Below are positions 21,420-62,402 of a stretch of 64,000 nt of DNA, piece after piece. The position numbers and the translations under genes are program-made. Position 1 is the first letter of the stretch. Each line of letters starts with the position of its first letter. The stretch comes from Pseudomonas sp. S35 (GTDB lineage: Bacteria; Pseudomonadota; Gammaproteobacteria; Pseudomonadales; Pseudomonadaceae), in assembly GCF_009866765.1 (NCBI RefSeq), contig NZ_CP019431.1:2046001-2110000 (forward strand), read 5' to 3'. The notes beneath the pieces were generated by a model, which searched no databases, was not told the DNA's origin, and saw only the letters and a program-made list of their open reading frames with translations.

Positions 21420-21495
<76 letters not shown>

Positions 21496-21563: not shown

Positions 21564-21720
21564 CATTCCAGCAAAAGCCACGGAAGTCCACCTACAGCCA
21601 GCGTTTTTGAGGCCAAAATTAAGGCCAAAGAATGCGGGTGGTGCCGGTTCCGGGTTGTTGCTGGGGTTGGATCGGGATGACCAGCAGCATCGAGCCTAAG
21701 TCTCATGACTTAGGAGTTTG

Positions 21721-23640
21721 ATGATGGCACTCTCTGATCTGACCGTGCGGCAAGCCAAGGCCGCCAAGAAAACCTACAACATCCCCGACACCGACGGCCT
21801 CGGCCTGGTGGTCGCCCCCACAGGCGGCAAATCGTGGCATCTGCGCTATTACTGGCTCGGCAAGCAAAAGCGCATCTCCCTGGGCAACTACCCCGAGGTC
21901 GGACTGCGTGAAGCCCGCGCCTCGCGTGATGAAGCTCGGGCGCTCGTGGCGAAGGGCATCAATCCTCATACCGACCGCAAACAGAAGCGGCACGCTGTCA
22001 AGCTGGCCTCGGACTACACGTTCAAGGCTGTCTTCAATGCCTGGGTCGAGCATCGCGCGAAGGAACTCAAGGAAGGCAGAAACAGCACGCTGTCGCAGAT
22101 CCAGAGAATCTTCGGGAAGGACGTGCTGCCCAGCCTTGAGAAAATGTCGATCTACGACATTCGCCGGCCTCAACTCCTGGGCGTCCTGGCGCGGATCGAG
22201 CGGCGCAAAGCTTTCACCACTGCCGAGAAGGTCCGCACTTGGCTGGGCCAGTTGTTCCGCTACGCCCTGGTCATTGTCGAGGGCATGGAGGCCAATCCGG
22301 CCACCGACCTCGACGTGGTGGCCGAACCCAAGCCACCGGTGAACCACAACCCCTATCTGCGTCTGCCCGAACTGCCCGACTTCCTCCAGAGGCTCAGGCT
22401 CTACAACCCGCGTGGTTGGCAAACGCAGCTTGGTATTCGCCTGCTGTTCCTGACGGGGGTGCGTACCGGCGAACTGCGGCTAGCGACCCCGGATCAGTTC
22501 GACCTCGACCGCGGTCTTTGGATTATTCCGCCGCAGATCGTCAAGCAGCTTCAGGACGAGATGCGCAAGGCGGGCAAGCGCCCGCAGGACATACCGCCTT
22601 ACATCGTGCCCCTGTCTGTCCAGGCCATCGAAATCGTGCGCTACCTCCTGCGTGTAATGCGGCCTGCCCAGAAGCACCTGCTGGCGCACCGCAGCGAACT
22701 CAAGAAGCGCATCAGTGAGAACACGCTCAACGCTGCTTTGAAACGAATGGGCTACGAGGACCAACTGACCGGCCATGGCATCCGGGGAACGATCTCGACG
22801 GCACTCAACGAGATCGGTTATCCCAAGATTTGGGTGGACGCGCAGCTTTCGCACTCCGATCCGAACAAGGTGAGTTCGGCCTACAACCACGCCAAGTATG
22901 TCGAGCCGCGCCGCCGGATGATGCAGGATTGGGCCGACCGTCTCGACCTGCTTGAACAGGGCAAAGTGGAAGCTGCCAGTGTGCATCTCACCATCCATAT
23001 CGAAGGGGTGCCAGCGATGGCGGAAGAGCCGGCGGCCATCGCCGCTGCTTCCGCTAAAGCCGCCGTGTCGTCCACGCCGATCGTTGTGGCGCCAAGTACT
23101 GAGGGAGCCACCTTCCAGCGGCTGTCGCAGGTGCCTCCGCCCCCCACTCGGACGCCGGAACCGGAAGTGTCTGCAATCCAGCGCGAGCGCGAGGAAATGC
23201 TGGCTATGTACGAGTCGCCTAGTTGTCTGCCTGTGCCGCTGTTCGGCAAGCTGGCCGGTAAGTCCAAGGACCAGATCAACCGCGAGCTGAAGGCAGGCAA
23301 GCTGCTGTCCATCAGCCTGGGTAATCGGGGGCAGCGTGTTCCTGATTGGCAACTGGTGCCACTCAAGCACAAGCTGGCCCAGGTACTCATGAATCAGTGC
23401 CCAGGAACGGACTCGTGGGACCTGTATCGAATGCTGACCCGGCCGCACCCGGATCTTGGCGATCGCGCAGCGATCGATGTAGTCACGCCGACCAATGTGG
23501 TCGCGGTCGTTCGGACCATCGTGGGCGACCAACATCATCCAGATGCCTCGGAGACCCTCTCGCCGCAGGCTATCCCAGAGAGCGTGCGGCAGAGCATTCG
23601 CCGGATGGTGGATGGCGCGGCGGTGTTCGAGGGCGTTTGA
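21721..23640 (+). CDS. int: Tyrosine site-specific integrase of the ICE
   Basis: 639 residues; ATG at 21721 follows TAGGAG (a TTG at 21718 and an ATG at 21724 are alternatives). An N-terminal arm-binding DUF4102-type domain (about 1-90) starts with LSDLTVRQAKAAKKTYN. The catalytic set is Arg248 (GVRTGE), His352 and Arg355 (GHGIRG), His378 (LSHSD) and Tyr388 (SAYNHAKY). It recombines the tRNA-Gly 3' end with the circular ICE. Unlike 400-residue P4 integrases it carries a long C-terminal extension: a low-complexity Ala/Pro linker (about 430-490), then a roughly 100-residue domain (about 498-600). That domain is clearly related to the RES antitoxin encoded at 42964-43596. Large size agrees with ICEclc-type integrases. 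Confidence 0.96.
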   Translation: MMALSDLTVRQAKAAKKTYNIPDTDGLGLVVAPTGGKSWHLRYYWLGKQKRISLGNYPEVGLREARASRDEARALVAKGINPHTDRKQKRHAVKLASDYTFKAVFNAWVEHRAKELKEGRNSTLSQIQRIFGKDVLPSLEKMSIYDIRRPQLLGVLARIERRKAFTTAEKVRTWLGQLFRYALVIVEGMEANPATDLDVVAEPKPPVNHNPYLRLPELPDFLQRLRLYNPRGWQTQLGIRLLFLTGVRTGELRLATPDQFDLDRGLWIIPPQIVKQLQDEMRKAGKRPQDIPPYIVPLSVQAIEIVRYLLRVMRPAQKHLLAHRSELKKRISENTLNAALKRMGYEDQLTGHGIRGTISTALNEIGYPKIWVDAQLSHSDPNKVSSAYNHAKYVEPRRRMMQDWADRLDLLEQGKVEAASVHLTIHIEGVPAMAEEPAAIAAASAKAAVSSTPIVVAPSTEGATFQRLSQVPPPPTRTPEPEVSAIQREREEMLAMYESPSCLPVPLFGKLAGKSKDQINRELKAGKLLSISLGNRGQRVPDWQLVPLKHKLAQVLMNQCPGTDSWDLYRMLTRPHPDLGDRAAIDVVTPTNVVAVVRTIVGDQHHPDASETLSPQAIPESVRQSIRRMVDGAAVFEGV

Positions 23641-24913: not shown

Positions 24914-25807
24914 CTAATCGCACGTATGGGCGCGTAGGCGAGCGATGAATCTCTCCAGCGGAGCCGACAAACTGCCGCTGCCGGGCCGAAGCAAGTAGGT
25001 GGTGATCACCGCTGACTCCGCCGCCAAGGGACGGATGACCACATCTGGCCGTTGGCAGGCTGCGGACCTGGTCTGCGTGGTGAAACCGAGGCCGAAGCCT
25101 GCGCCGACCAGGGTCAGCATCATGTCCAGCGAAGACACATGCTCAACGACATTGGGCTCACGATCCAACGGTCGAAGGACCCGCGCTAGTTCGCGGCAGT
25201 AGCCCTCGCACACCTGCGGATCGCACAAGACGAGCGGGTGGCTCCCGAGTTCGTGAAGAGGGACCTCCCTGTGGGCTAACAATTCATGCCGGGCTGGTAC
25301 CGCAATCACCAGCGAGTCCTGCCAAAGTGGTTCGGCAACAATGTCTTCATCGATCTCGGCCGTGTATGCGAACCCGGCCGCGAAGTCGCCTGACCGTAGA
25401 CCACGCAACTGCTCGGCCAAAGGAACCTCGGACAGCCTTATTTCAATCTCCGGCTCCTTTTCACGGCAATGAGCGAGGAACGCGGACAGTCGCTGGTCGA
25501 CCGCGCCATCGGATATCGCGATGCGCAGGCTACCTCGTAAGCCGGCCGCGACGGCTTTGGCATTCTCCCGGGCCTGTTCCAAGACGGTGAATAGTCTTCG
25601 AGTGTCTTGCAAGAACGCAGCGCCGGCTGCGGTAAGCCGGGTTCCTCTACGATCCCGATCGAAGAGCACTACCCCCAATTCATCCTCAAGCTCTTTGATA
25701 GTCCGCGAAAGGGGTGGCTGCTCGATATGCAGACGTTCGGCGGCCCGTGTGAAGTGCAGCTCCTCGGCCAAGACACCGAAGCAGCGAAGGTGTCGCAATT
25801 CCATCAA
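24914..25807 (-). CDS. LysR-family transcriptional regulator
   Basis: 297 residues. The HTH is MELRHLRCFGVLAEELHFTRAAERLHIEQPPLSRTIKELE at residues 2-41, followed by the linker helix and a complete effector domain. It is a close relative of the LysR protein at 55093 (nearly identical HTH) and of the HTH-less protein at 23698, so the ICE holds three members of one subfamily. The target is not evident: no divergent gene begins upstream within 580 bp. Either of the two start methionines (25807, 25804) is possible. Confidence 0.92.
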   Translation of the reverse strand: MMELRHLRCFGVLAEELHFTRAAERLHIEQPPLSRTIKELEDELGVVLFDRDRRGTRLTAAGAAFLQDTRRLFTVLEQARENAKAVAAGLRGSLRIAISDGAVDQRLSAFLAHCREKEPEIEIRLSEVPLAEQLRGLRSGDFAAGFAYTAEIDEDIVAEPLWQDSLVIAVPARHELLAHREVPLHELGSHPLVLCDPQVCEGYCRELARVLRPLDREPNVVEHVSSLDMMLTLVGAGFGLGFTTQTRSAACQRPDVVIRPLAAESAVITTYLLRPGSGSLSAPLERFIARLRAHTCD

Positions 25808-26391: not shown

Positions 26392-27582
26392 TCAATGAGA
26401 GTTGACCCGGTTGTGCGGCGCCTGCGGGGTCCGACGCAGGTTCAGCCACTGCACCAGGACACCGAGCACGGCCACTGCGCCCGCACCACTGGCCAAGGCC
26501 CCCGCTGGCCACTGCTGGAGCAGCAACACCCCGCCCAGCGCCGCACCGATGGCGCTGCCCAAGTACAACGCCGACTCGTTGAGTGCTACGGCCAGATTGC
26601 CGTCGCCTTGGCGCTCGCGCGCGTTGATCAGCTCATTGTTCTGCGGCACCTGCAGTGCCCATCCCACCGCGCCCCAGGCAGCGATCGGAAGCATCACCAA
26701 CCAAGCACCCATCGATGCCGTCACTGGAAGTAGGAACAGCGCCGCAGCCAGGATTATCATGATCCACAGGGTCAGTACCGGACCCCTGACGCGATCCACC
26801 AACGGGCCGATGAGAAAGCTGCCGAGCACGCCACCAACACCCCATACCCACAGGTAAGGTGTCACCGATCGAGCCGCGCCCTGGCTTGCAGCCAGCAACG
26901 GTGAGATGAAGGTGTACATACCCAAGCTGGCGATTGCCGCCAGCAGCGATACCAACAGGAGCAAGGCCACGTGACCATCGGTCAACCAAGCCAGTTTGGC
27001 CCTGAGTGGCGTGGCTGCTGGGGCTGGAAACGCGGGTAGCCTCAGCGCCAGCCCCACCAGGGAGATTGCGCCCAAGGCGGTTACCAGCCACAGGGCCGAG
27101 GCCCAGCCGAGACGTTCGGCCAACAGCAGGCTCAGCGGCACACCCAGCACCGTGCCACTGGCCATACCCCCCATGATCACTGCGATCGCCTTGCCCCGCT
27201 GGTCTGGCGGCGACAGCGCAGCCGAGGCGGCAATACCCATTGCAAGATAGACGCCGGCGCCAATACCGGCCAGAGCGCGGAAGACCAGCAGCGCATTGAA
27301 GTTGGTCGCCAAGGCGCTGGCTGCGTTCGCGAGCACGAACAATCCGAGCGCGAACAGCAAACCACCTCGTTGCCGACGAGCAGGCAGCAGCGCGACGAAC
27401 AGCGGCGAGCCCAGACCGTAGGCCAGGGTGAAAGCGGTCACCAGTTGCGCCGCAAGGGCGACGGGCACCGCGAAGGCTGTTTCGATCATGGGGATCAGGC
27501 CAGCGGTAACGTACGACGCCATGCCCAAGGCGAAAGCACCGAGGGCGACAAGATAGACTGGAGATTGCGCAGAACGTGACAT
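26392..27582 (-). CDS. MFS exporter of the ALA-analogue cluster
   Basis: 396 residues from the ATG at 27582 (MSRSAQSPVYLVALG), which has TAGGAG about 8 bp before it; a longer frame exists. Twelve hydrophobic segments. DHA1-type drug/sugar efflux features: RALAGIGAGVYLAMGIAASA, GKAIAVIMGGMASGTVLGVPLSLLLAERLGW (antiporter motif C region, about residues 130-165). It is the last gene of a five-gene operon, 66 bp after asnB. Position and family fit export of, and self-resistance to, the cluster product, as proposed for the exporter of the alaremycin cluster. Resembles AraJ/PbuE-type efflux proteins. Confidence 0.85.
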   Translation of the reverse strand: MSRSAQSPVYLVALGAFALGMASYVTAGLIPMIETAFAVPVALAAQLVTAFTLAYGLGSPLFVALLPARRQRGGLLFALGLFVLANAASALATNFNALLVFRALAGIGAGVYLAMGIAASAALSPPDQRGKAIAVIMGGMASGTVLGVPLSLLLAERLGWASALWLVTALGAISLVGLALRLPAFPAPAATPLRAKLAWLTDGHVALLLLVSLLAAIASLGMYTFISPLLAASQGAARSVTPYLWVWGVGGVLGSFLIGPLVDRVRGPVLTLWIMIILAAALFLLPVTASMGAWLVMLPIAAWGAVGWALQVPQNNELINARERQGDGNLAVALNESALYLGSAIGAALGGVLLLQQWPAGALASGAGAVAVLGVLVQWLNLRRTPQAPHNRVNSH

Positions 27583-27648
27583 TGGGAGGCTCCTAAGAGA
27601 AAAGAGCGTGGAGGCGCGCCACGGTACGACGCGCTTCACAGCGATGGA

Positions 27649-29502
27649 TCAAAGAGTGAGTTCGACGCGGTATTCGGCGAGCCAGGTGTTCAAGCCGATG
27701 GCCAGCTCCATTCCCATTCGGTCGTACATGGGAGACAGATTCCCGAGGGGTTTCGCAAGGGTGTTTGCGATACGTTGCCGATCGAGCAGCGGCAACACTG
27801 GCGCTGCCGGATCGGCCAGGATCGCGACGAGCGACTCGCGCAGTCCCCGCTCATAGGCCGGATCCTGCGTCGAGGGGTATGGACTCTTGACCCGCTCGGC
27901 GATGCTGTCCGGAAGCAGGTCGCGCGTGGCGGCGCGCAGGATGCTTTTCTCCCGGCCGTCGAAGGACTTCATTTCCCAAGGGATGTTGAAGACGTACTCA
28001 ACCAGGCGGTGGTCGCAGAATGGCACGCGCACCTCCAGGCCCACCGCCATGCTCATGCGATCTTTGCGGTCGAGCAGCGTCTGTACGAAGCGTGTCAGAT
28101 TCACGTAGCTCATTTGTCGCATGCGCCGGTTGGTCGCATCTTCTCCGGACAGCACTGGGGTCTCGGCCAGTGCTTGGCTGTAGCTGTCGCGCAGGAAGGT
28201 GTCCATCTGCAAGGTGTCCAGCAGGTCTTGCGCGAACAGCGTCTTGCCGTCGAAATACTTGCCAGTCGCAGAGGTCAGCCACGGAAAAGTCTGAGCAGCG
28301 ATCGCCTCTGGATCATGAAACCAGCGATATCCGCCGAACACTTCATCGGCCGACTCGCCTGACAAGGCCACGGTCGAATGTCGGCGGATCTCCTGGAACA
28401 GGCGGTACAGCGAGGGCCACATGTCGCCCCAGAATGCAGGTGGCAGGTCCAGCGCCTGAACGATCTTGGCCCGCAGCGCCGGATCGGCCAGCTCGCTGCT
28501 GTCCAGAACGATTTCACCATGGGTAGAACCGATGCGCCTTACCAGGTCACGCACGAAGGGGGCGTCGGGGGTGCCGCGCACCGCATCGCCGGTAAAGCCT
28601 CCGCCGTGGTCGGCGAAGTCCACTGAGAACGAGCGGATGTTGTCCTTGCCATCGGCCAGCAGCTTCTTGGACGCCAGGGCGGTGATGATCGAGGAATCCA
28701 AGCCGCCGGACAGTAGGCTGCACAACGGCACGTCGGCGACGATCTGCCGATCAACGATGTCCTCCAGCAGGTCGCGGGTATGGCGGACGGTCTGTTCCAG
28801 CGTGTGCTCATGCTCATGGGCCTGCAGCGCCCAATAGCGATGGCGCGACAGGCCCGCACGGCTGATCTTGACCAGCTCGCCCGGCAGCACCTCGCGCATA
28901 CCGGCGAAGATCGCGTGGCCCGGAGTTTTGACCATCTCTAGCACTTCGCGCAGCCCATCGGCATTCACCTTGCGAGGCACTCTCGGGTTGGCGAGCAGGG
29001 CTTTGGGTTCGGAGCCGAACACCACGCCGTCGTCGGTCTGGAAGTAGTACAGCGGCTTCACGCCCATCCGGTCGCGTACCAGCAGCAGTTGCTGTGTCAG
29101 TCGATCCCAGAGGGCGAAGGCGTACATGCCGTTGAGCCGTTCAACGAAGGCCTCGCCCCATTCCAGGTAAGCACGCAGAACCACCTCGGTGTCGCTGCGG
29201 GTCTCGAAGCGGTGGCCGCGCTCCAGCAATTCGCGGCGCAACTCCGGGAAGTTATAGACCTCTCCCGTGTAGCTGATGACCGCAGCGGCACGGTGACCGC
29301 CATGCTCAGCGACCATCGGTTGGCGGCCGCCCTCCAAGTCGATGATCGACAGACGCCGGTGCCCCAGCCCGATAGGGCCGTCGATCCACACGCCCTGCGC
29401 ATCGGGGCCGCGCGGTGCCAGGGTATCGGTCATGCGCTGCAAAGTGTCGCGGTGCGTCGTCAGGTCATGGCTGAACGCAAGCCAGCCGGTCATTCCACAC
29501 AT
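27649..29502 (-). CDS. Asparagine synthetase B-type glutamine amidotransferase
   Basis: 617 residues, starting MCGMTGWLAF, so Cys2 is the glutaminase nucleophile. The Ntn domain (1-210) includes RGPDAQG, GHRRLSIIDLEGG and YNFPELR; the synthetase domain has the PP-loop SLLSGGLDSSIITAL near residue 260 and FGGYRWFHDPEA. Length exceeds E. coli AsnB (554) and is like AsnB/AsnH amide synthetases of natural product clusters. It uses ATP and glutamine to turn a carboxylate into an amide. Being inside an ALAS-like operon, I infer that it amidates the carboxyl group of the pathway acid (alaremycin to primocarcin step) rather than making asparagine. 28 bp from the preceding gene. Confidence 0.9.
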   Translation of the reverse strand: MCGMTGWLAFSHDLTTHRDTLQRMTDTLAPRGPDAQGVWIDGPIGLGHRRLSIIDLEGGRQPMVAEHGGHRAAAVISYTGEVYNFPELRRELLERGHRFETRSDTEVVLRAYLEWGEAFVERLNGMYAFALWDRLTQQLLLVRDRMGVKPLYYFQTDDGVVFGSEPKALLANPRVPRKVNADGLREVLEMVKTPGHAIFAGMREVLPGELVKISRAGLSRHRYWALQAHEHEHTLEQTVRHTRDLLEDIVDRQIVADVPLCSLLSGGLDSSIITALASKKLLADGKDNIRSFSVDFADHGGGFTGDAVRGTPDAPFVRDLVRRIGSTHGEIVLDSSELADPALRAKIVQALDLPPAFWGDMWPSLYRLFQEIRRHSTVALSGESADEVFGGYRWFHDPEAIAAQTFPWLTSATGKYFDGKTLFAQDLLDTLQMDTFLRDSYSQALAETPVLSGEDATNRRMRQMSYVNLTRFVQTLLDRKDRMSMAVGLEVRVPFCDHRLVEYVFNIPWEMKSFDGREKSILRAATRDLLPDSIAERVKSPYPSTQDPAYERGLRESLVAILADPAAPVLPLLDRQRIANTLAKPLGNLSPMYDRMGMELAIGLNTWLAEYRVELTL

Positions 29503-29530
29503 AAATCACTCCTGAAATGGTTGTTAAGCC

Positions 29531-30604
29531 TTAGCCCAAGCTCTCAAGGTCTGCGCTCTGGGGTATGAGCAACCGCGCCGCGCCGCGTACATAGCGGGCA
29601 AGCGGCAGCGTGCCGATCTGCCGGCCGATGCCGTCGAGCAGAGCCTGAAGGCGGATCGCCTCATCGAGGCCGGCGAAGGGTTGCCGAGGTGCTCCACCCA
29701 GTGCAGTCACGCGCGTAACGTCCTCGCACAGGCGCGACAGCTTGAGCAGTGTTTCGAGTCCGACCTCGCTCGGGTCGGTCCGGAAGGCATCCACCAGCAC
29801 CTCCCGTCCTTCGCTGTCGCGGGTCCAGATGCGCAACTCGTCGTGGTCCCAGGCCGGGGTGTCGTAGACGATGCGCGCGTGGAAGATCCGGCCGGCCGGA
29901 TCGGCGAAAGAGAAGTCCACGGTGCGCTGTCGTTGGATGTTGACGAAGCTGCTGTAGCCGGCCACCACCGCGTCGCCCAGGGTCGCTGTGAGCAACACGG
30001 TGTCCGGAACATCGGGGCCGGAAAGGGAAAAGTCCGAGCCGATGCCGATCGCCTGCCGTAGGCGCAACGTTTCGCCAGGCGCGCCGATCCACTGCACCAG
30101 GTCCAGAGCATGGATGACCTCGCTGCTCACGCCGCAGGTGGGTCGATAGTCGTTCAGCCGGTCTTTGCCCCAATGGAAGCTGGCGCGGATCAGCGACCAC
30201 GCCTGCTCGGCCACCCGGTCCCTCAGCCGCTGGCTGGCCTCTGAATAGCGCTCCACCAGATCCAACGCAAAGCCCTGAGCACTCGCCAGTCCGGCGCAAG
30301 CGTCTGGCCAGCCATCCCCCGGCGCGGCCAGCGGCTTCTCGCAGAGCACGAAGCCCGTGAAGCCGGCTAGGTCGCGCAGGATGCCAACGTGCGCATGATC
30401 GTTGACGCTGACCACCACCACGTCGGGGTGGAATTCGGCCAGCGCGCGACGAACGTCCGGGTAGTAGGGCAGGGCTTCGCCGATGCGCTGCTGGCGTGCC
30501 ACATAGGCTATGTCGAGCGGCAGGTCCAGCGTGCCAGCAAGATGGCGGAAGGCACGCTGGTAGCGCCTGCCGGCATAGCCCAGTCCGATGATCAGCAGCT
30601 TCAT
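29531..30604 (-). CDS. Gfo/Idh/MocA-family oxidoreductase
   Basis: 357 residues from the ATG at 30604, which overlaps the GNAT stop (ATGA). The Rossmann motif is MKLLIIGLGYAGRRYQRAF (GxGxxG variant) and the family signature EKPLAAPGDGW (normally EKPLA, with Lys near 97) is present, followed by RASFHWGKDRLNDYRP. Family enzymes use NAD(P)(H) on hydroxyl/keto substrates, sometimes through oxidation-elimination-reduction. In this operon it could remove water from the serine-derived hydroxymethyl group to make the exocyclic vinyl group, matching the role suggested for the oxidoreductase of alaremycin biosynthesis (from memory). Exact chemistry is inference. Confidence 0.85.
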   Translation of the reverse strand: MKLLIIGLGYAGRRYQRAFRHLAGTLDLPLDIAYVARQQRIGEALPYYPDVRRALAEFHPDVVVVSVNDHAHVGILRDLAGFTGFVLCEKPLAAPGDGWPDACAGLASAQGFALDLVERYSEASQRLRDRVAEQAWSLIRASFHWGKDRLNDYRPTCGVSSEVIHALDLVQWIGAPGETLRLRQAIGIGSDFSLSGPDVPDTVLLTATLGDAVVAGYSSFVNIQRQRTVDFSFADPAGRIFHARIVYDTPAWDHDELRIWTRDSEGREVLVDAFRTDPSEVGLETLLKLSRLCEDVTRVTALGGAPRQPFAGLDEAIRLQALLDGIGRQIGTLPLARYVRGAARLLIPQSADLESLG

Positions 30605-31101
30605 GGCCGGCCTCCCGACAGACTCAGTAGTCCTTCCACGCCGCGCACGAAACCCAGCTTGCGGTACAACGCCTCGGCGGCCGGGGTGGTCTCCAGCAGC
30701 ACCTTGGTCACGCCGCGCTCGGCGAACCATTGCAACAACTCGTGCATCAACCTCTCGGCGATGCCCTGGCGTCGGCACGGCGGCGACACCACCACCGACT
30801 GGACCCAGCCGCACCAGCCGCTCAGGCAGTCCGGCGCAGGCGGGCGTGAATCGATGAGGCCGGTGGCGCAGGCCACGACTTCGCCGTCCCGGTCAGCGAC
30901 GGCGATTCTCGTGTGCTCGCCACCTGCTAGCACTGGCTTCAGCCAGTCCCGATAGGCGGCCTTCCAGCGCAAGCGTTCCTCGGACGTGCGGCTCGCATAG
31001 CTTGCCGTTGACGCGCCATCCAGCAGATGAGCGCGCAGCGCTACCAGCACCTCGATATCGGATGGTGTGGCCGGGCGAATCTTCCAGGATGCGTTCGACA
31101 T
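30601..31101 (-). CDS. GNAT N-acetyltransferase
   Basis: 166 residues. Motif A of the GNAT fold is VQSVVVSPPCRRQGIAERLMHELLQWF (about residues 105-130; acetyl-CoA pyrophosphate loop RRQGIA), and motif B is LETTPAAEALYRKLGFV. It starts two bases before the ALAS-like stop and overlaps the next gene, so the three are tightly coupled. In context it would acetylate the alpha-amino group of the ALA-like intermediate, protecting the unstable aminoketone. Alternative: a resistance acetyltransferase inactivating the product. Confidence 0.9.
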   Translation of the reverse strand: MSNASWKIRPATPSDIEVLVALRAHLLDGASTASYASRTSEERLRWKAAYRDWLKPVLAGGEHTRIAVADRDGEVVACATGLIDSRPPAPDCLSGWCGWVQSVVVSPPCRRQGIAERLMHELLQWFAERGVTKVLLETTPAAEALYRKLGFVRGVEGLLSLSGGRP

Positions 31102-31102
31102 T

Positions 31103-32350
31103 TCACGACGCCTCCTGCAGGGCGTCGGCGGCGCCGTGTGCTAGCAGCGGAATGTCGAAATGCCCGAAGACCTCTTCCAGCGCCTCGGCGAGCTGGTCGA
31201 TCTGCGCATCGCTGTGGTTCGGCGTGGCATTGACGCGGAAGCGCTCGGTGCCCACTGCCACCGAGGGGAAATTGATCGGTTGCAGGTAGATGCCATGCAC
31301 ACGCAGCAGCCGCTCCGCCGCAGCCTTGCACTTGCCGGCGTCGCCGACCAGCACCGGCAGCACGTGTGTGGTGGAGCACGCCATCACCGGAATGCGCCGC
31401 TCGGCCAGTGCTTGGCGCAGGCGCCGGGTTTGTGCATGCAGCCGGTCACGCTCGGCGGTTTGCTCCTTCAGGTGTTCGACGCTGGCCAGGCAACCGGCCG
31501 CTACCGCGGGCGGCAGCGACGTGGTGAAGATGAAGCCGGTGGCGAACGATCGGATGGCGTCAACCAGCCATTGAGCGCCGACGATGTAACCACCAATCAC
31601 GCCGATCGCCTTGGCCATCGTGCCCTGGATCAAGTCCACCTGATCGGCGACCCCCAAGTGCGCCGCCAGTCCGGTGCCGCGCGGACCGTACATGCCCACC
31701 GCATGCACCTCATCGAGAAAGGTCAGCGCGTTGTGGTGGCGGGCCAGCGCCACGATCTCTGCGATAGGCGCCACATCGCCGTCCATGGAGTACACCGACT
31801 CGAACACCACGATCTTCGGCCGCTCGCGCGGGTAGCGCGCCAGTAGCTCCCCCAGGTGGGCCACATCGTTGTGACGGAACACCTGACGCTCGGCACGGGT
31901 CGCGCAAATGCCACTGATGATGGACGCATGGTTCTTCTCATCGCTGATCACCACGCAGTCGGGAATCTGCCGCAGCAGGCATTGCAACGTCGCATCGTTG
32001 GAGCTGAAGCCGGTCGGGAATACCAGCGCCGCCTCCTTGCCATGCCAGTCGGCCAAGCTGCGCTCCAGCTGGCAGTAGATCCCGTGAGTTCCGCCGATAT
32101 TGCGCGAACCGCCCGAGCCGGCGCCATAGATGTCGATCGCCTCGTGCATCGCTTTGCACACGCTCGGATGCTGTGACATCCCGAGGTAGTCATTGCTGCA
32201 CCAAATGACGACGGGACGGTTGTCTTCGCCTTCGAGCCGCGCCAGCGGATATTTTCCACGGATCCGATTCAAGGTCACGAAAGTCCGGTACTGCCCGGAA
32301 GCCTTCAATTCACTCAGTTTTTCACTCAGCAAACTTTGGTACATGCTCAT
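31103..32350 (-). CDS. 5-aminolevulinate synthase-like alpha-oxoamine synthase
   Basis: 415 residues; RBS AAGGAG 8 bp before the ATG. Full ALAS landmarks: YRTFVTLNRIRGKYP, VIWCSNDYLGMSQHP, SDEKNHASIISGI, FESVYSMDGD, FLDEVHAVGMYGPRG (Asp213 pairs with PLP), GTMAKAIGVIGGYI (PLP Lys247), FATGFIFTTSLPPAVAAG, PINFPSVAVGTERFR. It condenses an amino acid with an acyl-CoA, losing CO2. Ser82 (GAGSGGSRNI) replaces the Thr that limits ordinary ALAS (R. capsulatus Thr83) to glycine; known changes there admit bigger amino acids such as serine. Pseudomonads make ALA from glutamyl-tRNA, so this is not a haem gene. First gene of the operon; predicted product is the serine-derived, hydroxymethyl ALA homologue. 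Confidence 0.93.
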   Translation of the reverse strand: MSMYQSLLSEKLSELKASGQYRTFVTLNRIRGKYPLARLEGEDNRPVVIWCSNDYLGMSQHPSVCKAMHEAIDIYGAGSGGSRNIGGTHGIYCQLERSLADWHGKEAALVFPTGFSSNDATLQCLLRQIPDCVVISDEKNHASIISGICATRAERQVFRHNDVAHLGELLARYPRERPKIVVFESVYSMDGDVAPIAEIVALARHHNALTFLDEVHAVGMYGPRGTGLAAHLGVADQVDLIQGTMAKAIGVIGGYIVGAQWLVDAIRSFATGFIFTTSLPPAVAAGCLASVEHLKEQTAERDRLHAQTRRLRQALAERRIPVMACSTTHVLPVLVGDAGKCKAAAERLLRVHGIYLQPINFPSVAVGTERFRVNATPNHSDAQIDQLAEALEEVFGHFDIPLLAHGAADALQEAS

Positions 32351-32449
32351 TTCTCCTTATTTTTTACACCTCATATGCGTTTTGGCAGCTGTCTACTGCC
32401 GGCCAAGAACGGCCGAGATGGCGAGCCGAAGTGATTGTGTGCGGCGTTT

Positions 32450-32488
32450 TTAGCTATTACAATTTAACTGTTTATACTGTTACTAAAA
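32450..32488. promoter_or_regulatory. Divergent promoter/operator, copy 1
   Basis: An AT-rich block in otherwise GC-rich DNA between the ALAS-like operon and the MmyB-type regulator. It contains TTACAATTTAACTGTTTAT, a good -10 hexamer TATACT (32473-32478), a direct repeat ACTGTT (32467, 32476) and an inverted TAAC/GTTA pair. About 34 of 40 positions recur, in opposite orientation, at 54393-54432 before a broken regulator of the same family. Conservation at two sites suggests an autoregulatory operator. Confidence 0.65.
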
Positions 32489-32496
32489 GTGATTGG

Positions 32497-33363
32497 ATGA
32501 GTATTGTTCGCAATATGGGACGTGTCAGAAAGGAATTGGCCGAGTTCCTGCGGAGTCGGCGCGAGCGTCTAGCGCCCTCAGAGGTCGGACTTCCGTCTGG
32601 GGCGCGCCGTCGCACGCCGGGGCTGCGCCGCGAGGAGGTGGCAGCATTGGCCGGCGTCGGGCTGACCTGGTACACGTGGCTGGAGCAGGGGCGAGACATC
32701 AGTGTGTCAGCGACTTTTTTGGACAACCTTGCGCGGGTCCTAAAGCTGGATGCGGCCGAGCGACGCTATCTCTACCTTCTTACTCAGCAGCGCCCACCCG
32801 CTGAGCCCGGTAAGACGTGGTGTGTCGTCCCACAGGTGGTCCATCGGCTCATGGGGGATCTGGCATTACGCCCCGCCTATGTGATCAACCTACGATGGGA
32901 CGTGTTGGCTTGGAACCAGGCTGCCGACAAGGTGTTCCGCTTTTCCTCGCATGCGCCGGAGCGGCGCAATTTGTTGTGGATGCTGTTTGCTGATCCCTTC
33001 ACCCAAGAGCTTTTCGATCCCTGGGAGGATCAAGCACTGCAGATGCTTTCTCACTTCAGGAGAGATTTCGTCAATGCGACGCAGGAGCCCGATATCTGCG
33101 CCTTGATCAAGGACCTGGAAAAAGTCTCTCCAGACTTCAAGGAATGGTGGCAGCAGCAAGACATTCACGGCCCGGATCACGGGTGGCGACGCTTACGGAT
33201 TGAGGAGCTTGGACACGTCGCATTCGAGTATTCAAAATTGACAATAGATGAGGATCATCACCTGCGACTTTTCTATTACGCTGCAATGGAAGATGGGGAT
33301 GACAGCAAGGGCTTTTCCGGGTGGCTAAGGTCATCCGGATTTCAACAAAACACGTCCGCGTAA
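32497..33363 (+). CDS. MmyB-like helix-turn-helix transcriptional regulator
   Basis: 288 residues from 32497 (an ATG at 32515 is about as good; the frame continues upstream to 32431 through the promoter). HTH at about residues 12-75 with the family hallmark RRRTPGLRREEVAALAGVGLTWYTWLEQGRDISVS. The C-terminal ligand domain (MmyB-LBD, PAS-like) includes AYVINLRWDVLAWNQAADKVF and NLLWMLFADP, and ends with LRLFYYAAMED. Named for MmyB of methylenomycin biosynthesis; such regulators often bind small ligands such as fatty acids. It is divergent from the five-gene operon and most likely controls it and itself. Confidence 0.9.
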   Translation: MSIVRNMGRVRKELAEFLRSRRERLAPSEVGLPSGARRRTPGLRREEVAALAGVGLTWYTWLEQGRDISVSATFLDNLARVLKLDAAERRYLYLLTQQRPPAEPGKTWCVVPQVVHRLMGDLALRPAYVINLRWDVLAWNQAADKVFRFSSHAPERRNLLWMLFADPFTQELFDPWEDQALQMLSHFRRDFVNATQEPDICALIKDLEKVSPDFKEWWQQQDIHGPDHGWRRLRIEELGHVAFEYSKLTIDEDHHLRLFYYAAMEDGDDSKGFSGWLRSSGFQQNTSA

Positions 33364-40856: not shown

Positions 40857-42671
40857 TTAGGGGGCGCGCAGATATGGATTGTTGGGCGGTACTTCATCAA
40901 ACAGGTGTCTGGGATCCTGCAGCAGATAGCCGTGCAACTGCCGTGATTTGCGTGGCCCGATGACCTCGCAGGTCCAGATGTTCAATCCATTGTGTTGCTT
41001 GCGGTGCAGCAGCAGTTTCTCGAAGTGCTTCTGCACCCACTGCCATTCCTGCACTTTCTCCTGCTTAGCCAGCGCGGTGATTTGCGGGTGCTCTTGGGCG
41101 TAGCGCTGGAAGACGCCGGGACTGACCAGGTAAACAGTATCGGCGACTGTATGCACCAGTGCCTTGGCATCATTGATGATCAGCTTGCGTGACTCGATGC
41201 TCTGTTTTAGCCAGACGATGAAGTGTTGGGCTGAAGGCAATACCGGCGATGAAGTGCCTCCCGTTGGATTGCTTGGTTGGCTTGGCTTGGCAATGAGCTT
41301 CGCCTCGTATGCTTGTAAGTCCGCAGATGGCTCTTCTACAGCAGGCTGTGCCGAAAGAGCAGGTTCGCTGATAAGCGACAGCAAATCTTCCATCGCATTG
41401 GCTTGAGCCGGCTCGGACTCGGCGACTATTGCCGCGGATGCGTCCACAAACGAAGGGGAATCGACGGGATCGGGCGAAGGTCCAGGGGAGTCGCTGTTGT
41501 CCTCGACCACCTCGCCCGCCGAGGCTTCTTCGGTTACGGTGCCGCTGAAAGGCTGTGGGCGTTCTGCGGCTTCCCAGATCAGTGCTGGAGCCAGGCGCAG
41601 CAGCGTGAAGCTGTGCGACCAGCCGGTCTCGCTGGTGACCGTGGCTTTCCAGACGGCTTTGCCTTCGGGTGTTGCCTGGAGGATGCCGTGATCTTGCAGC
41701 ACATTGAATACGGCGGTGTTGTTTGAAGGAATGCCATCGATGCCCTGTGCCAGCAAGTGAGCGCGCAACTTGTCGGAGACGGTCTTGCTGACGAGCCACA
41801 GCGCATCGTGCGTCAGCCAGCCATCGGACGCCTGGGGCTGATTGAGCTTCAACTCTTCTTTGAGCAAATAGCGCAGGCCATCCAGCAGCTTGCGCTGCAA
41901 AGCGTGTTTCGGTGCGGCCATCGCCTTTGCCGGATCGCCTCCCAGTTCCTGGGCGACGGACGCACGGTCGGCCTTGACCACTAGTTCCCCGAGCACCCCG
42001 GCATGCTCGTACTGTCCTGCCATGACGTACAGCAGCGCAGCCCACAATGATGGGAAGCCGCTGAGCCAGTCTAGGATGAAGCGATCGATCACCTGGTGGT
42101 ACAGCAGGCCGGTAGCTGCACCGTGCAGACGATACTCGCGATCCTCCCGGTAGCGGAATCGGTAGGGTTGCTTCAGCGGACCATGCCATGGGTGCCAGAC
42201 ACTGCCGTCGGCATGCTCGACATGCAGGTCAACTGCGATCTTGCCGATGTCGTGAAGCAGCGCGGCGTAGGCGGTGGCGGCGGTCCAGGCTTCGGCTTGT
42301 GCGGCCTGGTCTTCGGGTGTTGTGCCAGCAGGTAACAGGTAGGACTGCCGCAGCTTGAGCGCGTAGGCCACGATTTCAAGCCCATGGTCGAGCATGCCAC
42401 CGTGGTAGGCATGGTGGTGGCTCTCAGAAGCGGGGAATTGCTGCACAAGCGCGGCGTAGCGCTGCAAGGGCGTGCGATACAGCGTGTCGAACTGCCGGCG
42501 AGACAGCGACGTGCGCTGCCAGATGTGTTCCAACAACTTCTGTCGGCGCGGGGTGGCGAGCAGGGACGCGGCCGTCTCCGGCCGCGTCAGCCCTTTCGGG
42601 AGGTCAGGGGCGGGTGCTGGCGACGGGGCGGCAGCGACCGAAGCCTGTTTTCGCTGGAACAGGGAGAGCAT
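40857..42671 (-). CDS. traI: MobH-family conjugative relaxase
   Basis: 604 residues from the ATG at 42671 (MLSLFQRKQASVAA); the open frame upstream to 43307 lies antisense to the antitoxin gene and is not used. The TraI_2 catalytic domain has the HD-type metal motifs FPASESHHHAYHGGMLDHGLE and YAALLHDIGKIAVDLHVEH, typical of MobH relaxases, and the C-terminal TraI_2_C winged domain covers about residues 500-604. A Pro/Ser/Glu-rich linker separates them. It nicks oriT and pilots ICE DNA into the recipient. Length is like the ICEclc relaxase. oriT is expected nearby; I could not assign it. Confidence 0.92.
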   Translation of the reverse strand: MLSLFQRKQASVAAAPSPAPAPDLPKGLTRPETAASLLATPRRQKLLEHIWQRTSLSRRQFDTLYRTPLQRYAALVQQFPASESHHHAYHGGMLDHGLEIVAYALKLRQSYLLPAGTTPEDQAAQAEAWTAATAYAALLHDIGKIAVDLHVEHADGSVWHPWHGPLKQPYRFRYREDREYRLHGAATGLLYHQVIDRFILDWLSGFPSLWAALLYVMAGQYEHAGVLGELVVKADRASVAQELGGDPAKAMAAPKHALQRKLLDGLRYLLKEELKLNQPQASDGWLTHDALWLVSKTVSDKLRAHLLAQGIDGIPSNNTAVFNVLQDHGILQATPEGKAVWKATVTSETGWSHSFTLLRLAPALIWEAAERPQPFSGTVTEEASAGEVVEDNSDSPGPSPDPVDSPSFVDASAAIVAESEPAQANAMEDLLSLISEPALSAQPAVEEPSADLQAYEAKLIAKPSQPSNPTGGTSSPVLPSAQHFIVWLKQSIESRKLIINDAKALVHTVADTVYLVSPGVFQRYAQEHPQITALAKQEKVQEWQWVQKHFEKLLLHRKQHNGLNIWTCEVIGPRKSRQLHGYLLQDPRHLFDEVPPNNPYLRAP

Positions 42672-42909
42672 GTAGGTGTCCTGGTGGTGGGCCGACCGGG
42701 AGGCCTTTTGGCCTTTTCGGGGTAGGGCCTTTCCCCTTGCACCCCATTCCCTTGCCATTTCTGCCCTTTGGCCTTTAACCGTTTCGGTATAGCGGGACGT
42801 AGATTGCGGTTCCAGCGTCAATGTGGAACCCGTTCGTGTGGATTGGGCGGTCGGCCTATGCTGCGCGGACGCCATTTCTGCCACGTGGGTTCTTGCTAGG
42901 GCGACAAAG

Positions 42910-42952
42910 TTGACAAAGGCGACTAGTGAGACTAAAGTTTGATCTACCTCAC
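42910..42952 (+). promoter_or_regulatory. Promoter and possible operator of the RES toxin-antitoxin genes
   Basis: TTGACA (42910-42915) and TAAAGT (42933-42938) with a 17-bp spacer. GACAAAG is directly repeated (42903, 42912) and GTGAG/CTCAC (42926-42930, 42948-42952) form an inverted repeat flanking the -10, suitable for autorepression. The antitoxin ATG is at 42964 with GGAG just before it. Confidence 0.55.
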
Positions 42953-42963
42953 ATCGCCTGGAG

Positions 42964-43596
42964 ATGATCATGTCCAATGCCGTCGAACTCATTGCCGACC
43001 GCCTGCCGCGCGTTACGGAGGAGGACGTGCGCCGCTTCGCCGCCATTGTCGATATCCGAGATGTCGGGGCTTTCGCGGCCGAGTTGCAGGCGTTCGTCCA
43101 CGAGCGTGTAGAGGCCGTGGAGCTTCCCGCCCGCTTGGAAATGGAGACGATGGAGCGGACCTTGGAACGCAAGGCGTCCGCGCTGCGCGCCGACACACGC
43201 TGGGCACCGAATGAAACCGAAGTCCAGCGAGGCCGTACCGTGTTGCTGGAAACCTTTAACCAGCCGCATAACGTGCCTATCCCCGAATTTGCCAAGTTGG
43301 CGGACAAGTCGCGTCAGCAGATCTACAAGGACATCCTCGCCCGTCGGTTGCTGGCACTGAACGTGGGGCCGCGCGGCCAGAAGCTGCCCGACTGGCAACT
43401 CGACCCGGTGAAGCAGCAGTTGACCCAAGCCGTGCTTCAGGAGGTAGAGGGCATCGACAACTGGACGATCTACGGTGCGCTGTCCGAACCGCTCGAAGGG
43501 TTGGGCGGGCGTTCGCCGGTGGATGCGGTGACGCCAGACTCGATCGACGTCGTAGCTGAGGCCGTGTTCAACGTGCTGGGCGTTCAGGTGCATTGA
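42964..43596 (+). CDS. Antitoxin of RES system, DUF2384/Xre-MbcA-ParS type
   Basis: 210 residues (start 42964 or 42970). N-terminal helical region, then a domain at about residues 100-205 with VPIPEFAKLADKSRQQIYKDI and GPRGQKLPDWQL, ending VDAVTPDSIDVVAEAV. This last part is the toxin-binding domain of MbcA/ParS antitoxins. The gene ends 12 bp before the RES toxin. The same ~98-residue domain is found at the C-terminus of the ICE integrase with about 40 identities by eye. It should neutralise the toxin and repress the operon. Confidence 0.85.
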   Translation: MIMSNAVELIADRLPRVTEEDVRRFAAIVDIRDVGAFAAELQAFVHERVEAVELPARLEMETMERTLERKASALRADTRWAPNETEVQRGRTVLLETFNQPHNVPIPEFAKLADKSRQQIYKDILARRLLALNVGPRGQKLPDWQLDPVKQQLTQAVLQEVEGIDNWTIYGALSEPLEGLGGRSPVDAVTPDSIDVVAEAVFNVLGVQVH

Positions 43597-51178: not shown

Positions 51179-51197
51179 GGCGCACTTACCGTGTAGA

Positions 51198-52216: not shown

Positions 52217-52218
52217 AA

Positions 52219-59641: not shown

Positions 59642-60084
59642 CAGTAGTCCTCCACACGCTCGCCCGGCATGGCGTACTGGATGCGCTGGTACAGGGGAAA
59701 CACGGTGCTGTAGCCGGGCACGGGCACGGGATCGGTCCCGGCGATGTGGGGGTACACGTACATCACGAGGTCGGGATTGGGCAGGCGCTGGAACTGGCGA
59801 TAGACCTCGTTGCGCGCCGTGCGGGTGTAGCGCATCTGCTCGGCGGGTGCGGCCTGCACGTCGGCGTCGGTCAGCGGCCGGCGCAGGCTCTGGCGCGCGT
59901 CGAGCAGCTGATGGCGCGCCACCTGGCCGGCACCACCAACCGCGCCGTCGCCGGTCTCCTGCTGCCAGATGTCCATCATCGAGCGGTCGCTATGGGTCAG
60001 CAGATCCTCCTTGCTGGTGGCGCAACCGCCCAGTAGCGCGAGGAGGAGGGCCAGCGTAACGCCCTTAGTCAAGTTCGAGAGCAT
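59641..60084 (-). CDS. Conjugative transfer lipoprotein, TIGR03751 family
   Basis: 147 residues from the ATG at 60084, inside the end of the upstream gene. Signal peptide with lipobox LLALLGGC (Cys21), then LPNPDLVMYVYPHIAGTDPVPVPGYSTVFPLYQRI, a family-typical segment. A VirB7/TraV-like outer membrane lipoprotein in role (inference). Confidence 0.9.
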   Translation of the reverse strand: MLSNLTKGVTLALLLALLGGCATSKEDLLTHSDRSMMDIWQQETGDGAVGGAGQVARHQLLDARQSLRRPLTDADVQAAPAEQMRYTRTARNEVYRQFQRLPNPDLVMYVYPHIAGTDPVPVPGYSTVFPLYQRIQYAMPGERVEDY

Positions 60085-61486: not shown

Positions 61487-62402
61487 GGCGGGCCTCCTTG
61501 CCGTCCTTCGGGGCCTCGGCGTCGACTTCCGGCTGCGGCAGATGCGTGGCCGGGTCGAAGCGTTGGATGGCAGGCAAAAGCGACTGCGCAAGGCCGTGCC
61601 CACGCGTCACCAGGTACAGGACGGTGGTGTCCTCGGGCGTGCCGCGCGGGCCGAGTGCCTCATGCTGCAAGGTGGCGGTGAGGAAATCGCCTTGCAGCAC
61701 GCGTGGGTCGAGCGTGATCCAGCCGGTGCTGGTACTGGTGAGGCACACGGCCGTCACCCACTGATCTTCCAGCCGCCACGAGGCGAGTGCGGTGGCGCGC
61801 GCCGGCAGCGTCGGCATCAAGGTGCCGAGGTCCAGGTCACGGCGCAGGTTGACCCGCATGACGCCCGGCAGCGGCTCGACGGTGCGCAGCGGCGCGTACA
61901 GGTTCTGCGCGGCAAAACGCGTGAGCACCACCGGGATAGGCGTTTCGCGCCGGGCCGACTGCGCGTCCGCCTGGCGATTGCCGGTTGCTGGTGCCTCATC
62001 GGCATCAGCCGGCTGATCGCCGTAGCGCGCAGAGGGCGCAGCGCCCTCGACGATACGCACCGGCTCCAATGCCGGCTCGCCTTCCTTGGCCGGCTCGGCC
62101 GCGATGTCCAGCAGGATCAATGCCCCGGTGTCGGCGTCTTGCAGTTGGAGTCGCGTGGGTTCGATCGGCTCGTTCGCGCGCAGGTACACCGCGCCGCCCG
62201 CGCTCTGCACGCGCAGACGCTCGCCCACGCCCGCAGGCACGCCAACGCGGACGTTCCGGTCGATAAACACGATGCGTTCCTGGCCGACCTTCAGTGGCAC
62301 CGCCAGCGGCATGCGTTCCCAGCGCAGAATCTCCACGGCCTGGGCAACAGGAGCCGAGGCCACGGCCAGCAGTCCCAGCAGCGCGAGTACAGGGTGCTTC
62401 AT
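61476..62402 (-). CDS. Conjugation protein, TIGR03749/PFL_4704 family (TraK/VirB9-like)
   Basis: 308 residues with signal peptide MKHPVLALLGLLAVASAPVAQA. Mature start VEILRWERMPLAVPLKVGQERIVFI resembles TraK-type secretin-like proteins; the centre is a disordered Glu/Ala/Pro linker. Periplasmic/outer-membrane core component by analogy. Overlaps the TIGR03746 stop by four bases. Confidence 0.9.
   Translation of the reverse strand: MKHPVLALLGLLAVASAPVAQAVEILRWERMPLAVPLKVGQERIVFIDRNVRVGVPAGVGERLRVQSAGGAVYLRANEPIEPTRLQLQDADTGALILLDIAAEPAKEGEPALEPVRIVEGAAPSARYGDQPADADEAPATGNRQADAQSARRETPIPVVLTRFAAQNLYAPLRTVEPLPGVMRVNLRRDLDLGTLMPTLPARATALASWRLEDQWVTAVCLTSTSTGWITLDPRVLQGDFLTATLQHEALGPRGTPEDTTVLYLVTRGHGLAQSLLPAIQRFDPATHLPQPEVDAEAPKDGKEARHAQ

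Follow-up and report, generated by a model that had tools for sequence, protein, structure and literature searches.

In a 64,000-nucleotide stretch of the Pseudomonas sp. S35 genome (NZ_CP019431.1, positions 2,046,001 to 2,110,000; hereafter the window), a homologue of 5-aminolevulinate synthase (ALAS) lies in one operon with genes for an acetyltransferase, an oxidoreductase-like protein, an amidotransferase and an exporter. What does such a set of enzymes make? Our preferred reading, to which we assign a probability of about 0.65, is that the operon encodes a pathway of the alaremycin type with an added amidotransferase step, that it is cargo of an ICEclc-family element, and that the AsnB-type protein makes the amide primocarcin.

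Gene calls and Pfam matches bear out the single packed operon of five genes with a divergent MmyB regulator that the preliminary description had proposed; all six genes are present, their coordinates were checked in the window, and several starts were corrected. The operon occupies the minus strand. The ALAS homologue (31103..32350, 415 aa; Aminotran_1_2, 225 bits) scores 556 bits against the NCBIfam 5-aminolevulinate synthase model TIGR01821 (cut-off 339) and may start at the second ATG (413 aa), the length of close homologues. It is followed by a GNAT N-acetyltransferase (30601..31101, 166 aa; Acetyltransf_1, 69 bits), a Gfo/Idh/MocA-fold protein (29531..30604, 357 aa from a corrected start at ATG 30604; GFO_IDH_MocA, 31 bits, cut-off 24), an AsnB-type glutamine amidotransferase (27649..29502, 617 aa; Asn_synthase, 315 bits, and GATase_7, 156 bits, with NCBIfam matches) and an MFS protein (26392..27582; MFS_1, 119 bits), for which ATG 27582 (396 aa) is preferred over GTG 27639 upstream of it. 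Spacings between successive genes are 1, –4, 28 and 66 bp, and no sixth gene was found within the operon. The interval between the ALAS and regulator gene starts (32351..32496) forms a divergent control region, beyond which the MmyB-type regulator (HTH_31 and MLTR_LBD, the latter at 129 bits) is read on the plus strand (32497..33363; start corrected to ATG 32497). A LysR regulator gene identified by Pfam (24914..25807, minus strand) lies 3' of the exporter on the same strand, and its membership is uncertain.

The soil bacterium Streptomyces sp. A012304 is named in print as a source of alaremycin, and our genome scan retrieved from it a locus (L066, NZ_BQUN01000182.1) in which ALAS, GNAT, Gfo and MFS genes run in one direction and in the order seen in the window. 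Identities between the two are 68%, 43%, 48% and 49%, respectively (46–49% for the MFS protein across comparisons), in agreement with the earlier suggestion that the set corresponds to the Streptomyces alaremycin-producer genes. The loci differ in that no AsnB or MmyB-type homologue was found at L066, whereas the window has both. Of three ALAS matches in the A012304 genome, that of L066 is the sole one over the NCBIfam cut-off. Judging by strain name, gene content and this single qualifying ALAS, the locus is probably the published alm cluster. We take AlmA to be the name of the ALAS homologue of that cluster, and accordingly call the window protein an AlmA-like alpha-oxoamine synthase.

The gene roles in the A012304 alaremycin cluster are as we presume them, and for the window we infer the substrates, the order of the steps, the amide, the target and the role of the regulator. 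The ALAS homologue would condense L-serine with succinyl-CoA to give 5-amino-6-hydroxy-4-oxohexanoate, whose 5-amino group would be acetylated by the GNAT protein. The Gfo/Idh/MocA protein would then remove water across C5–C6, giving the 2-acetamido-enone alaremycin, and AsnB would activate the terminal carboxylate with ATP and move glutamine ammonia to it, giving primocarcin (5-acetamido-4-oxo-5-hexenamide). The product would be exported by the MFS protein, presumed to serve in self-protection as well, and the MmyB-type protein would control the divergent promoter. The Gfo/Idh fold is the usual mark of an NAD-dependent dehydrogenase, which counts against the dehydratase role proposed here. 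Its structure model (pLDDT 90) matches Gfo/Idh enzymes in Foldseek, and GxGxxG (G7, G9, G12), EKP89–91, H165 and D168 are invariant in 25 homologues.

Primocarcin is a Nocardia compound for which, to our knowledge, no gene cluster is known; the likeness to it lies in the predicted operon product, the terminal amide of alaremycin. The genome of the primocarcin producer was not found (the name Nocardia fukayae is absent from the taxonomy), and none of the 69 named loci comes from a record titled Nocardia. The amide would act as an enone electrophile or else as an uncharged form that permeates more readily. According to two reviews, the acid alaremycin is a reported inhibitor of porphobilinogen synthase. 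No porphobilinogen synthase gene adjoins the cluster in the window or in 74 loci, and hence target-based self-protection lends that target no support.

Could the ALAS homologue instead belong to another pathway? In our tree, 66 rows, including the window and L066, split from the reference ALAS with SH-aLRT support of 100 (95 in an earlier tree); on the other side of the branch stand six alphaproteobacterial hemA-annotated ALAS, one cyclizing ALAS (cALAS) and four actinobacterial rows. The window protein clusters with that of A012304 and apart from the haem type, here represented by the six alphaproteobacterial proteins, all plasmid-borne, in a tree that leaves out eukaryotic ALAS; this placement is in keeping with the preliminary description. 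The hemA annotation in public plasmid records would suit an additional ALA synthase that serves haem formation and whose neighbours are unrelated. We give this idea next to no weight, given the tree position and the joint presence of ALAS, GNAT and Gfo in 66 of the 69 loci; moreover, the host genome has one glutamyl-tRNA reductase over the cut-off, so ALAS is dispensable for haem. The PLP lysine is retained, and all 70 ALAS rows (window and 69 loci) keep Arg22, Lys247 and Arg372 and carry Ser in place of Thr83, among them the rows of two loci without GNAT and Gfo (L004 and L007). Thr occupies position 83 in six of six alphaproteobacterial hemA-annotated ALAS, as it does in both of the aligned bacterial ALAS with solved structures. 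Amino-acid specificity is described as being directed by Thr83 (PMC4525017), and substrate choice in ThAOS as being set by this same position, which is Ser in serine palmitoyltransferase (PMC11906848). Ser82 is no proof of serine use, however, because it is also found in a cALAS adjoining AMP-ligases, a kind reported to use glycine (PMC4525017). Indeed, cALAS is described as carrying both Thr83-to-Ser and Thr365-to-Ser changes (PMC4525017). The window ALAS has the two of them (the second is found in 42 of 66 rows), and the ALAS of actinobacterial AsnB loci clusters with a cALAS (support 99 in the earlier tree), all of which would fit a pathway to C5N (2-amino-3-hydroxycyclopentenone) with a cyclizing ALAS. 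Yet the reported triad requires an aminolevulinate-CoA ligase and an amide synthase (PMC4525017), and Pfam finds no AMP-binding domain in the operon proteins, compared to two at control locus L116. In addition, the window ALAS belongs to the opposite clade and has retained Ile149, and C5N production strikes us as highly improbable.

The remaining alternatives concern the amidotransferase, which has Cys2 and an SGGLDSS motif at 265. Among solved structures its closest relative is 7ylz, a hydroxyamidotransferase that we take to be TsnB9 (588 bits over 608 residues, versus 153 bits for E. coli AsnB). With the TsnB9 and SaHAT hydroxyamidotransferases (trichostatin A, benzohydroxamic acid) the window shares a full-length AsnB-family protein, of the kind using a free carboxylic acid; SaHAT, a TsnB9 homologue, is reported to work on the free acid with ATP (PMC13418202). 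AsnB might install a hydroxamate, with hydroxylamine derived from glutamyl hydroxamate, so that alaremycin would become a hydroxamic acid (C8H12N2O4) able to bind metals. This we consider unlikely. The reported module has an amidooxygenase and accessory subunit, TsnB6 and TsnB7, beside TsnB9 (PMC13418202), whereas the window operon has no extra gene and, by Pfam domains, no TsnB6/7-like pair was seen in it; nor does Pfam show an oxygenase among the scanned neighbours in the window, L014 and L008. It is also conceivable, if rather improbable, that the pathway ends at the acid, alaremycin, or at a relative derived from a different amino acid, and that AsnB is otherwise used, for example in self-protection by reversible amidation. 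Consistent with this, 22 of the 69 loci, including that of A012304, hold the four genes without AsnB. On the other hand, in every one of the 43 loci that have AsnB, its gene comes directly after Gfo, at most 400 bases away and on the same strand, and in comparisons of the window with three actinobacterial AsnB loci AsnB is the best conserved protein (70–71%, versus 37–54% for the others).

An MmyB homologue is present in 39 of the 43 AsnB loci, on the strand opposite to ALAS in all 39, and LysR homologues occur in 33 of the 69 loci, 30 of which are AsnB loci. Among 398 genomes of the host genus, the Gfo protein was found in 13 (E ≤ 1e-40) and ALAS in 12 (E ≤ 1e-150), and all 12 belong to the 13, an overlap beyond chance (hypergeometric P = 5e-22, relatedness ignored). 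The thirteenth, G176, shares its coordinates with locus L016, where the ALAS reading frame is disrupted.

The preliminary description had placed the operon on a conjugative element of a Pseudomonas, and both parts of that placement stand. Among six genomes compared, host hemB DNA is closest to P. salomonii (92%), followed by P. indoloxydans (82%), Stutzerimonas zhaodongensis (79%), P. oryzihabitans (78%), Halomonas (72%) and Xenorhabdus (66%). The element is integrated at the 3' end of a tRNA-Gly(gcc) gene (21420..21495, plus strand), within which repeat comparison locates an 18-bp attL (GTCTCGTTTCCCGCTCCA, 21478–21495) identical to the repeat printed for ICEclcB13 (PMC9960961). Next to it lies a tyrosine integrase of 640 aa (21718..23640, plus strand; Arm-DNA-bind_3, Phage_int_M and Phage_integrase). 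Relaxase and type IV secretion families of the ICEclc type were found (TraI_2, TraC_PFL_4706 and TIGR03755, 03756, 03749, 03746 and 03751), all on the minus strand: a TraI_2 relaxase/helicase (40857..43307; 464 bits), profile matches to a TraG_N protein, TIGR03755 and TraU/TIGR03756 (44683..49038), and a TraC_PFL_4706 ATPase with TIGR03751, TIGR03749 and PFL_4703 (56777..63391; TIGR03744, 1477 bits). An attR repeat matching at 17 of 18 bases, without a tRNA, lies at contig positions 2237842–2237859, giving an island of ∼170 kb between the att repeats. The site is empty in two relatives (G017 and G016), in which sequence past the tRNA-Gly maps to 2239402 onward; the 1.5 kb between the attR repeat and 2239402 is unmatched in this comparison. 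The element differs from the ICEclc family in its biosynthetic operon, its size and its imperfect attR.

The cluster is also plasmid-borne in other bacteria. Four-gene relatives are carried by a bacillar plasmid and a 467-kb Rahnella plasmid, and in the skin commensal Staphylococcus capitis such a relative takes up a large part of a mobilizable plasmid of 9.3 kb. A DUF3363 gene adjoins the cluster in 22 of the 69 loci, and beside such a gene the cluster would be carried by further elements of Pseudomonas, Stutzerimonas and related bacteria. Movement of hemA loci between bacilli and actinomycetes was noticed in 2015 (PMC4525017). Judging by the figure legend, the Geobacillus thermoglucosidasius hemA locus of its Figure 7 is probably of the same type as, and the very locus on, plasmid pGEOTH01, which contains ALAS, GNAT, Gfo, LysR and MFS genes; the parts of that account describing transfer with actinomycetes mention neither a function nor an AsnB form (PMC4525017). 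A small antibiotic pathway appears to move between distant bacteria. Whether the AsnB-bearing form is both the primocarcin cluster and a widely travelling antibiotic cassette (ICEclc-like cargo here, beside DUF3363 genes elsewhere, and with four-gene relatives on plasmids) is in our judgment an even call.

Collectively, these data link a five-gene Pseudomonas operon with a haem-biosynthesis inhibitor that has already been characterised, predict the exact mass of its product, and offer a candidate gene cluster for primocarcin, an old antibiotic. If the reading is correct, conjugative elements and small plasmids across Pseudomonadota, Bacillota and Actinomycetota would carry genes for making an antibiotic rather than for resisting one, and genes labelled hemA (5-aminolevulinate synthase) in C5-route genomes would need re-annotation. 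Haem-pathway inhibitors would then be a weapon common to these phyla.

The host genome is a single contig of 6.61 Mb, in which the window occupies G000:C1:2046001-2110000. We place the host in Pseudomonas because its hemB is 92% identical at the DNA level to that of Pseudomonas salomonii, and less so to those of P. indoloxydans (82%) and Stutzerimonas zhaodongensis (79%). Five genes lie on the reverse strand, their families confirmed by Pfam and NCBIfam: those for an ALAS-like enzyme (31103-32350), a GNAT acetyltransferase (30601-31101), a Gfo/Idh/MocA protein (29531-30604), an AsnB-type amidotransferase (27649-29502) and an MFS exporter (26392-27582). Successive genes are spaced by 1, -4, 28 and 66 bp, a purine-rich stretch precedes the start of all five, and the gene for an MmyB-type regulator, divergent from the operon, begins at 32497. 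The operon agrees with the one drawn in the preliminary description.

Using an alignment of the Gfo protein to scan a collection of 84,980 species genomes, we found 102 stretches that fit a pattern and confirmed 69 of them as loci. One of these, L066, comes from a record titled Streptomyces sp. A012304, the strain reportedly named in the title of the 2025 alaremycin pathway paper by Okui et al. Its ALAS, GNAT, Gfo and MFS genes all point in one direction and follow the same order as in the window, and their products are 68, 43, 48 and 49% identical, respectively, to the window proteins by blastp (70, 42, 48 and 46% by tblastn). Three ALAS matches occur in the A012304 genome, and that in L066 alone exceeds the NCBIfam cut-off. 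In the alm pathway, the ALAS homologue reportedly couples serine with succinyl-CoA and the GNAT protein acetylates, followed by the oxidoreductase-like protein and the exporter. The likeness to the Streptomyces alm locus that had been proposed is thus seen protein by protein, with four genes matching in order at 43–68% identity (blastp), whereas AsnB is present in the window and has no homologue in L066. We regard the assignment to an alaremycin-type scaffold as strong, with a probability of about 0.85. No earlier report of the operon in Pseudomonas was found in the literature searched, most subscription papers lying outside it; alaremycin is mentioned there in three papers and primocarcin in none. 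The accessible text of PMC4525017 describes hemA loci that actinomycetes have in common with Geobacillus thermoglucosidasius or Chromobacterium, and calls their function speculative.

In a tree of 77 ALAS sequences, the window protein groups with that of A012304 and not with haem-pathway ALAS, in line with the preliminary description. The 66 rows that include these two fall on one side of a branch (SH-aLRT 100), with six alphaproteobacterial ALAS annotated as hemA, one cALAS and four actinobacterial rows on the other; the rows exclude L012, L016, L068, L074 and L076, in which ALAS is split, short or missing. In another tree, which included BioF/KBL-like outgroups, this branch has an SH-aLRT of 95. 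The host encodes glutamyl-tRNA reductase and therefore does not need this ALAS for haem. The PLP lysine, Lys247, is conserved in the ALAS rows checked, as are Arg22 and Arg372. At the position of R. capsulatus Thr83, the window ALAS has Ser82; Ser is found in 70 of 70 rows (the window plus 69 loci, these including L004 and L007, plasmids without GNAT and Gfo), and Thr in 6 of 6 hemA-annotated ALAS. Thr83 directs the amino-acid specificity of ALAS, and its change to Ser also marks cyclizing ALAS, according to the accessible text of PMC4525017; that of PMC11906848 treats the same position as a selectivity site, occupied by Ser in serine palmitoyltransferase and AONS. The one cALAS in our dataset, adjoined by two AMP-ligases, carries Ser here, and a second cALAS marker, Thr365 to Ser, occurs in the window ALAS and in 42/66 rows overall. 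Given these shared changes, Ser82 fits serine use without proving it. The accessible parts of PMC3981678, PMC6148460 and PMC9239090 contain nothing on serine use by ALAS.

A PDB sequence search returned no relative of the Gfo protein. Its structure model (pLDDT 90, pTM 0.88) matches Gfo/Idh enzymes with query TM values of 0.61–0.74 and 13–17% identity in the 50 matches listed, among which are levoglucosan and inositol dehydrogenases and NAD-dependent sulfoquinovosidases. GxGxxG, Glu89-Lys90-Pro91, His165 and Asp168 are kept without exception across 25 homologues. In the proposed pathway, this protein would eliminate water from the acetylated β-hydroxy ketone, with acetylation by the GNAT protein coming first because the free 2-amino-enone would hydrolyse. 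The dehydration is the least certain step in forming the scaffold.

The full-length AsnB protein has both Cys2 and the SGGLDSS motif, and in all 43 loci that have it its gene is found no more than 400 bases after that for Gfo, on the same strand; the divergent MmyB-type gene accompanies 39 of these 43 and also two loci without AsnB. Acting on the alaremycin-type acid, the enzyme would yield the amide primocarcin, of formula C8H12N2O3 (computed [M+H]+ 185.0921). Alternatively, AsnB could install a hydroxamate on the same acid, as its nearest solved relative is a hydroxyamidotransferase, 7ylz (588 bits, versus 153 for E. coli AsnB). SaHAT, an enzyme of this kind, places hydroxylamine onto a free acid, but its module, as described in the accessible text of PMC13418202, includes two amidooxygenase genes. 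Since the operon has no amidooxygenase gene and none of the window neighbours scanned has an oxygenase assignment from Pfam, the gene content argues for the amide as the probable product, and a hydroxamate is clearly less likely. Families that recur beside the clusters, where named, are LysR, ParA, DUF3363, Xre and RES.

AsnB relatives also occur in other settings. On a Klebsiella michiganensis plasmid (L109; NZ_CP048111.1), an AsnB 60% identical to that of the window adjoins an acyl carrier protein, an AfsA-related hotdog protein and a HAD-IB phosphatase, apparently a different pathway using the same type of amidotransferase. In a 740-residue metagenome protein (P0347), the N-terminal part of ALAS is fused in frame to most of AsnB, reflecting either a deletion or an assembly error.

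Two candidate accessory functions were considered. The host has two hemB genes (G000:C1:6330368 and 2386532; proteins 44% identical), raising the idea of self-resistance via a second porphobilinogen synthase. However, of 18 further genomes searched in the same genus, 8 likewise have two hemB genes, and at 1e-5 the window and 74 loci (L003–L076) gave no match to either host protein. LysR homologues are present in 33/69 loci, 32 of them on the same strand as the Gfo gene. Their membership in the cluster, and hence a role as its specific regulator, is uncertain because Tn4371-type ICEs place a LysR gene (traR) downstream of their cargo (accessible text of PMC11448139). In L014, LysR is followed by Xre, RES and ZnuA genes, with no transfer block there.

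ALAS, GNAT and Gfo occur together in 66/69 loci and are joined by both AsnB and MFS in 42; AsnB is found in 43, and 22 have the four genes without it. In the other five, MFS is absent from the stretch (L011, L048), parts are missing (L068, L076), or the AsnB form has a broken ALAS frame and no called GNAT (L016). The AsnB loci belong to Pseudomonas, Stutzerimonas, Halomonas, Billgrantia, Brenneria, Xenorhabdus bovienii, a member of the Alcaligenaceae, three actinobacteria and several metagenome-assembled genomes, of which one carries a cyanobacterial and one an alphaproteobacterial label. Four-gene forms are found in Paenibacillus, Bacillus relatives, Streptomyces, Martelella, Rahnella and Xenorhabdus anantnagensis. 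Within 398 genomes of the host genus, 13 encode the Gfo protein and 12 the ALAS, all 12 being among the 13; when the phylum was sampled evenly, the Gfo protein appeared in 3/398 genomes, the host's own counted. Such patchy occurrence is what horizontal transfer gives. A 3.9-kb ALAS-to-AsnB DNA query found one match in 5426 complete E. coli genomes, to AsnB only (25% of the query, 67%). At the protein level, Gfo homologues with the names E. coli, Salmonella and Enterobacter are seen at 49–56%, and these could escape a DNA query.

Four actinobacterial loci (L055, L056, L057 and L061; three with AsnB) stand out in the trees. Their ALAS groups with cALAS (support 99), with a single clade for all 70 ALAS rows not rejected (AU p 0.219), and their Gfo with that of other Streptomyces (support 98, in a tree from which L059 was removed by hand and short matches were left out); the three AsnB are separate from 41 others. 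The cassette therefore seems to have undergone re-assembly at least once. The ALAS gene of these loci lies on the opposite strand and its product is 53–54% identical. Their GNAT and Gfo proteins, and AsnB in the three that have it, match those of the window cassette, suggesting that the first enzyme was swapped.

Three tRNA-Glu/tRNA-Gly pairs end at window position 21495, and the last 18 bases, GTCTCGTTTCCCGCTCCA, are identical to the ICEclcB13 attachment repeat printed in the accessible text of PMC9960961. After the tRNA array, an integrase gene starts at 21718, and transfer genes inside the window encode a TraI_2 relaxase, TraC_PFL_4706, and TIGR03755, 03756, 03749, 03746 and 03751. Five genomic copies of the 15-base core exist: the three window tRNA copies, another tRNA-Gly, and one without a tRNA at 2237845-2237859, where 17/18 bases of the repeat agree. 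In G016 and G017, two same-genus genomes without the island, the sequence following tRNA-Gly maps from 2239402 onward in the host, a junction that in G016 lies about 0.1 kb past the tRNA-Gly, and in G017 is preceded by a separate stretch of 5.7 kb; neither genome matches the 1.5 kb from the repeat to 2239402. Based on the far repeat at 2237859 and this empty site, the island measures ∼170 kb and carries the operon as cargo. An end near the ParA gene (∼2149 kb) was dropped, as no repeat occurs up to 2165 kb and the empty site puts the end near 2237859. The island is either one ICE or an accreted island, with genes at ∼2152–2239 kb sampled only. Attachment repeat, integrase, relaxase, transfer genes and the empty site in two relatives together uphold the claim of a conjugative element. 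Also on the island are a MASE1-domain protein past the regulator (34066-35613) and, among the transfer genes, a cargo block (49829-56016) of MFS, HAD hydrolase, hexapeptide acyltransferase and acyl-CoA dehydrogenase genes, with an MFS N-terminal fragment (54477-55076) and a LysR gene (55093-56016) 71–73% identical to those in L010 and L011.

Other vehicles are also seen. The cluster is adjoined by a DUF3363 gene, of a relaxase type, in 22/69 loci (in one of them only 49 residues of it) and by a ParA gene in 20/69; L008 is the closest relative, and its ParA shares 62% identity with the ParA of the host island. In L014:348-5238 and like loci, ParA and DUF3363 genes are upstream of the cluster, and Xre and RES genes follow in L014; here an element unlike the window's ICE appears to carry the same cassette. 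Among 72,556 plasmids, the Gfo query found six records: three Parageobacillus, two Staphylococcus capitis and one Rahnella. The S. capitis DSM 20326 plasmid (NZ_CP103052.1; L006:1-9275), of 9275 bp and typed as mobilizable (MOBV), has ALAS, GNAT, Gfo and LysR genes and an MFS gene that spans the record start, along with replication, mobilization and toxin genes. The cassette proteins are 31–55% identical to those of the window, and this skin commensal would harbour a mobile, alaremycin-like cassette in minimal form. On plasmid pSD607 of Macrococcoides canis (L007:6791-8857), ALAS occurs with a DMT transporter and without GNAT or Gfo, and on a Priestia megaterium plasmid (L004:7001-9484) it adjoins an IS3 transposase; these are simpler ALA-analogue systems or remnants.

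For the alaremycin/primocarcin reading advanced in the preliminary description, these data make the scaffold assignment strong and leave the terminal amide a likely but unproven product. The finding that an alaremycin-type pathway, together with an amidotransferase, resides on an ICEclc-family element in Pseudomonas stands.
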